DNA of 64,000 nt, from assembly GCA_021806645.1 (NCBI GenBank), contig JAJZQX010000015.1, forward strand, positions 1 to 64,000. The letters are read 5' to 3'. Below the pieces are notes generated by a model. The model was not told the DNA's origin. It saw only the letters and a list, made by a program, of their open reading frames with translations, and did no database searches. Positions 1 through 4,484 of this stretch are shown one piece after another (within the stretch, counting starts at the first letter, position 1; every line of letters starts with the position of its first letter). Made by a program: the position numbers and the translations under genes. Source of the DNA: Myxococcales bacterium (GTDB lineage Bacteria; Myxococcota; Myxococcia; Myxococcales; Anaeromyxobacteraceae).

Positions 1-152
1 CACCGCCCAGAGTGAACGCCAGAAGCCAGCCTCCGCGGTGGCCGTCAGGGACCTGCTCGCCCACTCGCCATCACGCTGCTTGGTCGAGATCGGGGCCTAC
101 GACATCATCGGGCGTGAGCGGCAACACCGAGGCCTTGGTCACTCCCCTACCA
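1..152. other. Unassigned left edge, probably the end of an integrated element
   Basis: No gene is recognised here. One plus-strand frame is open from base 2 through the tRNA fragment, but its translation matches no family I know. If the tRNA-Phe fragment at 153-198 is an attachment-site copy, its orientation puts the integrated element on this left side, with the intact tRNA beyond the window. That would make these bases the terminal part of the element. This is inference. Confidence 0.35.
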
Positions 153-198
153 GGACTGAAAATCCCCGTGTCCCTGGTTCGATTCCGGGTCCAGGCAC
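153..198 (+). tRNA. 3' fragment of tRNA-Phe (GAA anticodon loop), likely att copy
   Basis: The segment contains a Phe anticodon loop (CTGAAAA, anticodon GAA), the 3' anticodon strand, variable loop, complete T arm (TTCGATT loop closed by CCTGG/CCGGG), the 3' acceptor strand TCCAGGC and discriminator A. It resembles the 3' part of bacterial tRNA-Phe closely. The D arm, 5' acceptor strand and most of the 5' anticodon strand are absent: the bases before GGACTGAAAA do not pair. No CCA is encoded. It cannot be a functional tRNA. Such 3' fragments are typically left where a tyrosine-recombinase element inserted into a tRNA gene. Confidence 0.8.
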
Positions 199-220
199 TT
201 TCATCTCGTCCGACATCAAC

Positions 221-261
221 GGCCCCGCCACGCTGCAAAGCATGGTGGGGCCTCTTGTTTT
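221..261 (+). terminator. Rho-independent terminator downstream of the tRNA-Phe fragment
   Basis: Arms at 221-230 and 243-252 form a 10-bp stem with one G-U pair around a 12-nt loop, followed by the T-rich run TCTTGTTTT at 253-261. It lies 22 bp after the tRNA fragment, where a native tRNA terminator would be. This supports the right side of the fragment being the original chromosomal flank. Confidence 0.7.
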
Positions 262-523: not shown

Positions 524-567
524 CTCCACGTTTGCCCCGGCAGGCCGAGCGCGGTAGGTCTTCCGCC

Positions 568-1137
568 ATGTCCACAGCCAAGGCGAAGAAGCAGGTCTTT
601 CAGCTCAAGGTGACGCTCGCCGAAGTGTCGCCTGTCGTCTGGCGCCGGATCTTGGTGCCAGCGGACGCCGCCCTGGCGCACCTCCACCTGGTTCTCCAGG
701 TGGCGATGGGGTGGAACGACTCCCACCTCCACTGCTTCGAGACCGCCGGGGGGCGCTACGGGATGATCGACCTCGAGGAGGACAGTCCCGACCTCCTGGA
801 TGAGCGGAAGGTGAAGCTCGCCAAGGTCCTGCCGAACAGGAAGGCCCGCCTCTTCTACAGCTACGACTACGGCGACGGCTGGAGCCACGAGGTCGTGCTC
901 GAGGCCATTCTGCCGACCGACCCCCGCCACCGGTACCCGCTCTGCATCGGCGGGGGCGGCGCCTGTCCTCCCGACGACTGCGGGGGGCCGGGCGGCTACG
1001 GGGAACTGGTCCGGGTCCTCCGGTCGCCGAAGGACGAGGAACACGACGACATGCTGACCTGGGTCGGCGGCTACTTCGACCCGGCCTCCTTCGACGCCAA
1101 CGAGGTGAACCGAGCCTTCCGCTTCGAGGAGTTGTGA
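568..1137 (+). CDS. Plasmid pRiA4b Orf3-like domain protein
   Basis: The 189-residue protein is an almost complete pRiA4b Orf3-like domain, a family of unknown biochemical function common on plasmids and in accessory chromosomal regions. Typical segments are present: an early VSPVVWRRI stretch, the GWNDSHLHCF block, and a central YDYGDGWSHEV block with its run of acidic and aromatic residues. After that comes a Gly/Cys-rich GGACPPDDCGG loop and a C-terminal FDPASFDANEVN segment. ATG 568 is chosen because the domain starts soon after; an in-frame ATG at 532 would add 12 residues. It converges on the SEC-C gene. Family call is secure; function is unknown. Confidence 0.85.
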   Translation: MSTAKAKKQVFQLKVTLAEVSPVVWRRILVPADAALAHLHLVLQVAMGWNDSHLHCFETAGGRYGMIDLEEDSPDLLDERKVKLAKVLPNRKARLFYSYDYGDGWSHEVVLEAILPTDPRHRYPLCIGGGGACPPDDCGGPGGYGELVRVLRSPKDEEHDDMLTWVGGYFDPASFDANEVNRAFRFEEL

Positions 1138-3153: not shown

Positions 3154-3329
3154 ACCTCGTCTCCAGACCGGGGTATCCGCGCGGACCGGTGCAGGTAATC
3201 ATAGCATGTGGCGTCCCGGCCTCGCCCGCCCGGCATGGGCCCAGCCGCATGCCCCTTGGCCGGGCCGGCCGCCTTCCGGTACAGAGGGACAGAGGGAACA
3301 CCTGCCGTTCCACCAGCGGAGTCCTCCCC

Positions 3330-4484
3330 ATGCGCGTCATCGTTGCGCCCGACTCGTTCAAGGGAAGCGTCTCCGCGCTCGGCGTGGCCGAGGCCATGGA
3401 GCGCGGGGTGAAGGCGGTCTTCCCCGCGGCCGAGGTGCTGAAGGTGCCCGTCGCCGACGGCGGTGAGGGGACGGTCGAGGCCCTGGTGGCGGCGACCCGC
3501 GGACGGCTCGAGCACGCGGTGGTGAAGGGGCCGCTCGGCGAGCCGGTCCGCGCGGAGTGGGGCGTCCTCGGCGACGGCAAGACGGCCGTGATCGAGATGG
3601 CCGCCGCCTCGGGGCTCCCCCTGGTCCCGAAGGACCGGCGGGATCCACGCATCACCACCACCTTCGGGACCGGTGAGCTCCTGCGAGCCGCCCTCGACGC
3701 CGGGCTCTCGCGGATCATCATCGGCATCGGCGGGAGCGCCACCAACGACGGCGGCACCGGCATGGCCCGCGCGCTCGGCATCCGCTTCCTGGACGGCGCC
3801 GGAGCCGAGCTTCCAGACGGTGGCGCGGCGCTGGCCCGGCTGCAGCGCATCGACCTCGCGGGCCTGGACCCGCGGCTGAAGCTGGTTGACCTGCTCGTCG
3901 CCTGCGACGTGGACAACCCGCTCACCGGGCCGCGCGGCGCCACGGCGGTCTACGGACCGCAGAAGGGGGCCACGCCGGAGCTGGTCCGTGAGCTCGACCT
4001 GGCCCTGGCCCGCTTCGCCGAGGTGGCGAAGGCGGCCACCGGCCGCGACGTGGCTGGGATCGCCGGGGCTGGCGCCGCCGGCGGGCTCGGCGCGGGGCTG
4101 CTCTTCTTCACGCCCGCCAGGCTCCGACCAGGTGTCGCCATCGTGCTCGAGGCGGCCGGGTTCGCGGCGCTGGTGAAGGACGCCGACCTGGTCATCACCG
4201 GCGAGGGGCGCACCGACTTCCAGACGGCCATGGGCAAGGCGCCGGTCGGCCTGGCGGCGGTCGCGAAGGCGCACGGCGTGCCGGTGATCTGCCTGGCCGG
4301 TGGGCTGGGGGAGGGGGCGGACGACGTTCTCGCCAAGGGCATCGACGCGCTCGCCAGCGTGGTACCGCAGGCGATGTCGCTCGAGGAGGCCATGGCCAGG
4401 GGCCCCGAGCTCATCGAGGCCGCCACCGCGCGCGCCTGCCGGCTCATGCGCGTCGGGGTGGTGCTCGGCTCGAAGCTGCGCTGA
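3330..4484 (+). CDS. glxK: Glycerate kinase (type II, GlxK/GarK family)
   Basis: Glycerate kinase phosphorylates D-glycerate, feeding phosphoglycerate into glycolysis. The 384-residue length is normal. Visible family marks are the N-terminal APDSFKGS, the PVADGGEGT block, the phosphate-binding glycine segment IIGIGGSATNDGGTG, the CDVDNPLTGPRGA block and the C-terminal VITGEGRTDFQT. ATG 3330 begins directly with the first beta strand. The gene stands alone, divergent from the ArsC-ArsN gene across about 175 bp, so the promoters of both probably lie there. No obvious glycerate or glyoxylate pathway partner is adjacent. The call is firm; 2- versus 3-phosphoglycerate product cannot be seen. Confidence 0.93.
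   Translation: MRVIVAPDSFKGSVSALGVAEAMERGVKAVFPAAEVLKVPVADGGEGTVEALVAATRGRLEHAVVKGPLGEPVRAEWGVLGDGKTAVIEMAAASGLPLVPKDRRDPRITTTFGTGELLRAALDAGLSRIIIGIGGSATNDGGTGMARALGIRFLDGAGAELPDGGAALARLQRIDLAGLDPRLKLVDLLVACDVDNPLTGPRGATAVYGPQKGATPELVRELDLALARFAEVAKAATGRDVAGIAGAGAAGGLGAGLLFFTPARLRPGVAIVLEAAGFAALVKDADLVITGEGRTDFQTAMGKAPVGLAAVAKAHGVPVICLAGGLGEGADDVLAKGIDALASVVPQAMSLEEAMARGPELIEAATARACRLMRVGVVLGSKLR

Follow-up and report, generated by a model that had tools for sequence, protein, structure and literature searches.

A displaced tRNA-Phe fragment at a contig end is very probably the far junction of an integrative element in an Anaeromyxobacteraceae genome

The stretch of DNA analyzed here (the window, 64,000 nt) begins at base 1 of contig C19, in an assembly of 4.14 Mb and 33 contigs. 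After 152 bases it contains a 45 nt displaced 3' fragment of tRNA-Phe on the plus strand (153..197; GGACTGAAAATCCCCGTGTCCCTGGTTCGATTCCGGGTCCAGGCA), which is 100% identical to nt 29-73 of an intact tRNA-Phe gene on another contig (C24:66781-66853, plus strand). The fragment has no encoded CCA, and the 5' 28 nt of the tRNA are absent; an earlier note on this DNA had likewise recognized the 3' part only. Identity between the two loci continues for 21 bp past the 3' end of the tRNA, giving a putative attachment core of 66 bp (153..218, plus strand) that matches C24:66809-66874 at 66/66 positions. A BLAST search against the genome itself extended the match to 77 bp at 96% identity (E 2e-29), and the 66-bp identity is far above chance. 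Because the 5' part of the tRNA is missing, neither ARAGORN nor Rfam at its gathering score reported a tRNA-Phe at the fragment, C19:153 does not appear in the genome-wide list of tRNAs, and the truncated covariance-model match that the earlier note expected fell below threshold. The fragment is recognizable by DNA identity only.

The first 127 bp of the window (1..127, no strand assigned) are the end of a repeated, IS-like element that is shared with the outer ends of C4 and C27; the three contig ends are 100% identical over 126-127 bp, and 127 bp is the assembly overlap length. The IS-like end stops 26 bp left of the fragment, short of it. Between the two lie 25 bp (128..152, plus strand; CGAGGCCTTGGTCACTCCCCTACCA) that resemble the left flanks of tRNA-Phe fragments in G016, G022, and G017, related genomes from other genera. 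We take those flanks to be arms of related elements, and by this likeness 128..152 would be the distal arm of an integrated element, of which the window holds these 25 bp only. On the other side of the core is a terminator-like hairpin (221..252, plus strand; -27.6 kcal/mol, z -4.2). The claim that an intact terminator follows the fragment is fair for the hairpin only, because it is followed by a poor U-tract (TCTTGTTTT), and no terminator was reported there by a strict scan. On the minus strand, a reading in the frame of the integrase described below covers 139..234 within an ORF at 139-510, ends in ..DEMKVPGPGIEPGTRGFSVLVGE* with its stop at 139-141, and matches integrase residues 401-427 at C19:154-234.

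Farther to the right is a PRiA4_ORF3-like gene (565..1137, plus strand; Pfam PF07929, E 1e-63), which agrees with the Orf3-like neighbor named before. A putative glycerate-kinase-like gene (3189..4484, plus strand), named from the look of its protein, served as a synteny anchor. Within it, C19:3330-4054 is 86% identical at the nucleotide level to a segment of contig C31 of the congener G001, 7.8 kb downstream of that genome's intact tRNA-Phe, which lies on the same contig and has no integrase. A second congener, G002, has the same fragment of 66 bp with the GNAT gene of C19 downstream of it on one contig. Because of the synteny in G001 and G002, the right side of C19 is most likely the chromosomal flank. 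Comparison with relatives had been proposed as a way to find an empty site, and it succeeded in part: G001 has the site without this insertion, although it is not a precise base-level empty site. In the closed relatives that we checked for an empty site at the level of the family, the C19 genes were not syntenic.

The genome has one intact tRNA-Phe gene (anticodon GAA), the copy on C24, and one fragment, that on C19. Upstream of it are ileS-, lspA-, and lgt-looking genes and a conserved gene of unknown function, and directly after it, in convergent orientation, is a tyrosine-recombinase gene (C24:66792-68090, minus strand, 432 aa; Pfam Phage_integrase E 6e-11, PHROG integrase E 1e-36). An intact tRNA-Phe followed by an integrase gene had been predicted to the left of the window; the pair exists in the same assembly, on C24 rather than on C19, and the orientation, side, and partners of the junction are those predicted. 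Beyond the integrase, C24 encodes an Xre/MbcA/ParS-type antitoxin, an HTH regulator, an RHH protein, and then the start of an HmaA-like anti-phage helicase (C24:72260-73627, L009 2261-3628; PADLOC E 7e-174). The contig ends 6.85 kb past the tRNA within an IS copy (IS4-like), and this IS-like end interrupts the helicase at about position 366 of 1176 in the profile, so that the first third is present; we found the remainder of the gene at no contig end. C24 and C19 are thus separate, unjoined contigs that each end in a repeat. We considered whether the end of C24 and the start of C19 are the two ends of one IS, and the copy inside C13 did not support this; neither an overlap of contig ends nor a target-site duplication links the two contigs, and the three flanks to the left of the IS contained none of the distal arm that we expected.

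We conclude that window 128-218 is very probably the attR junction of an integrative element inserted in the only tRNA-Phe gene of this genome. A crossover by a tyrosine recombinase between the attP of the element and the chromosome would have taken place within the anticodon arm. An element-borne copy of tRNA nt 29-73 would then have completed the gene at attL (C24:66781-66874), and the original 3' part of the chromosomal gene would have been displaced to the far end, where it would be the present 153-197. The integrase gene would lie beside attL, directed toward the tRNA, with its frame passing through the core in antisense and, in the integrated state, stopping on a TGA supplied by tRNA nt 12-14. 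Both junctions are present in the assembly, their cores are identical, the integrase occupies this position and frame, and related arrangements occur in other genomes. The pairing of C24 and C19 as the two ends of a single element is an inference, as is the size of that element. Three observations stand against this explanation. C24 and C19 are not joined, the integrase lacks the canonical Arg I and box II His (see below), and the core on C24 has next to it a hairpin that is more like that of G001 than the C19 hairpin is, whereas under the simple model the native hairpin would be that of C19. The likeness to G001 could be explained by earlier insertions at the same site.

The junction is a standard tRNA-Phe attR, and the kind of insertion is well known. 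The tRNA islands in Islander have the same regenerated tRNA and same-orientation displaced 3' fragment at their ends and an integrase inside, with crossover in the anticodon region in about half of them (PMC4383910); unlike in those islands, the two ends here are on separate contigs, and their order on one molecule is presumed. Fragments that start at tRNA nt 28-32 also occur in related genomes (G002, G004, G006, G013, G016, G017, G018, and G022). The fragment is 13.4 kb from the intact tRNA-Phe in the closed chromosome of G006, which has an integrase beside the tRNA, and 9.7 kb from it in the closed chromosome of G022; in G004 and G017 the intact gene and the fragment are on a single contig. 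With this junction, one end of an island is located at a hotspot of recurrent insertion in the source's bacterial family, and the part of the island on C24 bears the start of an anti-phage gene. In G002 and G016 a core has an integrase piece on one side and the arm of another element on the other, and judged by these flanks the two look like tandem arrays. At G002:C20 2275-2584 (L117) a tRNA-Phe core has an integrase C-terminal remnant to its right and looks like a decayed tandem element.

The mixed flanks in G002 and G016 make it conceivable that window 153-218 is the internal core of a tandem array or an older relic, and that the integrase on C24 came with a later, different element. The site is a hotspot, the C19 hairpin is unlike that of G001, and C19:219-2229 holds accessory-type genes that are not seen at the corresponding place in G001, all of which would fit such a history. 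However, the two cores are identical at all 66 positions, C19 has no integrase remnant to the right of the fragment, and the genome has a single integrase of this family; we therefore regard this explanation as unlikely.

Two further explanations would dispense with the integration event at this locus. As the IS-like end lies so close to the fragment, the fragment might be a partial duplication of tRNA-Phe that arose by chance or through the IS, with no integrase involved; but the IS end does not reach the fragment, several genomes share the break at tRNA nt 28-32, conservation extends to the flanking arm, and an integrase sits at the intact gene, which leaves this explanation scarcely credible. 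Mis-assembly or a contaminant contig is very improbable. The assembly does look binned (33 contigs, 1.6% contamination) and breaks at repeats, but the C19 genes are syntenic with those of congeners near tRNA-Phe, and at 66 bp the repeat falls below the 127-bp overlap of the assembly and would not by itself have produced a false junction. Insertion of an integrative element at tRNA-Phe remains our preferred reading of the locus.

Because the integrase frame crosses the core and takes its stop from tRNA nt 12-14, integration replaces the last residues of the protein. The stop is TGA, antisense of UCA at tRNA nt 12-14, in 15/15 relatives located at tRNA-Phe, Asn, Lys, or Met, a set that includes near relatives and is not independent; in the other frames of these 15 the stops are scattered. 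The integrase tail at attL is ..GFSVPCSTS*, and the tail predicted for attP is ..GFSVLVGE*. The antisense reading at 139..234 would be the C terminus expected in the circular (attP) form, once joined with the C24 part. In a relative of the integrase on the viral contig L201 the frame goes on beyond the core and enters the arm, and we predict that the frame of the unintegrated form here does likewise. The borrowed stop codon would couple the C terminus of the integrase to its integration state, and the swap of tails may affect the enzyme. The Myxococcus phage Mx8, of the same phylum, is the known precedent: there the integrase gene contains attP, and the recombinant gene that integration yields has a new 3' end, with a new C terminus (PMC6070905). 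Islander names the integrases of Mx8 and SSV as cases in which attP is crossed (PMC4383910). When 50,697 phage records were searched by tblastn at E 1e-5 for homologs of the present integrase, Mx8 was not among the matches.

The active site of the integrase departs from the canonical one at two positions. Cys207 occupies the Arg I position (ATSACWGE, compared with STGARWGE in P2 Int), and the box II His is replaced by Asn291 here and in nearly all relatives, although the viral search patterns required that Asn. The hairpin Lys (K232), Arg II (R294), His III (H317), and Tyr (Y327) are all present. As the canonical Arg I and box II His are lacking, the activity of the enzyme is uncertain from its sequence. 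An AlphaFold model (mean pLDDT 79) had tyrosine recombinases as all of its top 20 Foldseek matches, and it matched the arm-binding integrases of Tn1549 (E 9e-9) and lambda (E 3e-8), to which the modeled fold appears alike, including the N-terminal three-stranded part. Identity to these two proteins is 13-16%, and they differ from the present integrase at Arg I and box II.

An arginine elsewhere may compensate. In an alignment of 72 relatives (A2, one row unusable; the integrase is L143), 33/33 relatives without Arg I have Arg at position 236, four residues after K232, a pattern first seen in 21 sequences and then tested on this larger set, which contains those 21. Among the 38 relatives with Arg I, position 236 is another residue in 35, a gap in 2, and Arg in 1; this sole exception (L205) is ambiguous, with its Arg in a stretch that holds an insertion. 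The viral-contig search patterns did not span the Arg I site, whereas frequencies in the genome-contig set are biased because one of its two search patterns demanded C/E there. We built a tree of 69 rows with the columns around both sites removed and with L205 and a broken copy (L194) left out. Arg I is present in 37/69, and the tree requires 9 changes for each trait, 4 of them forced by well-supported branches. The two sites change in opposite directions in every one of 4 independent pairs, which are too few for significance (p 0.125). In the IntCTnDOT subgroup of tyrosine recombinases, Arg I is absent in some members and replaced by an arginine farther downstream (PMC8138268). The integrase family described here resembles that subgroup in its sequence pattern and differs in its hosts, and by this likeness an alternative arginine may act in place of Arg I here. 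We give about an even chance to the broader proposal that in this myxobacterial and phage family Arg I was relocated more than once from box I to the strand that follows the hairpin Lys, several times in all (R236 here), while the stop is borrowed from the D-arm of the target tRNA and each integration rewrites the C terminus. If true, the near-perfectly complementary arginine swap, in a family that has many members, would offer a test of how an active site relocates a key residue and stays functional.

Terminal repeats recur elsewhere in the assembly. Among the ends of C1, C7, C9, C20, C23, C24, C27, and C28, two sets of five share terminal repeats, and the two sets probably represent one five-copy IS that breaks up the assembly. 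Contig C31 of this genome (L073, 11669 bp) has identical ends of 127 bp and, on that account, is probably circular, with a length of about 11.5 kb; it encodes a tyrosine recombinase, a serine recombinase, a packaging-ATPase-like protein, and a possible lytic enzyme, and is probably a small phage or plasmid.
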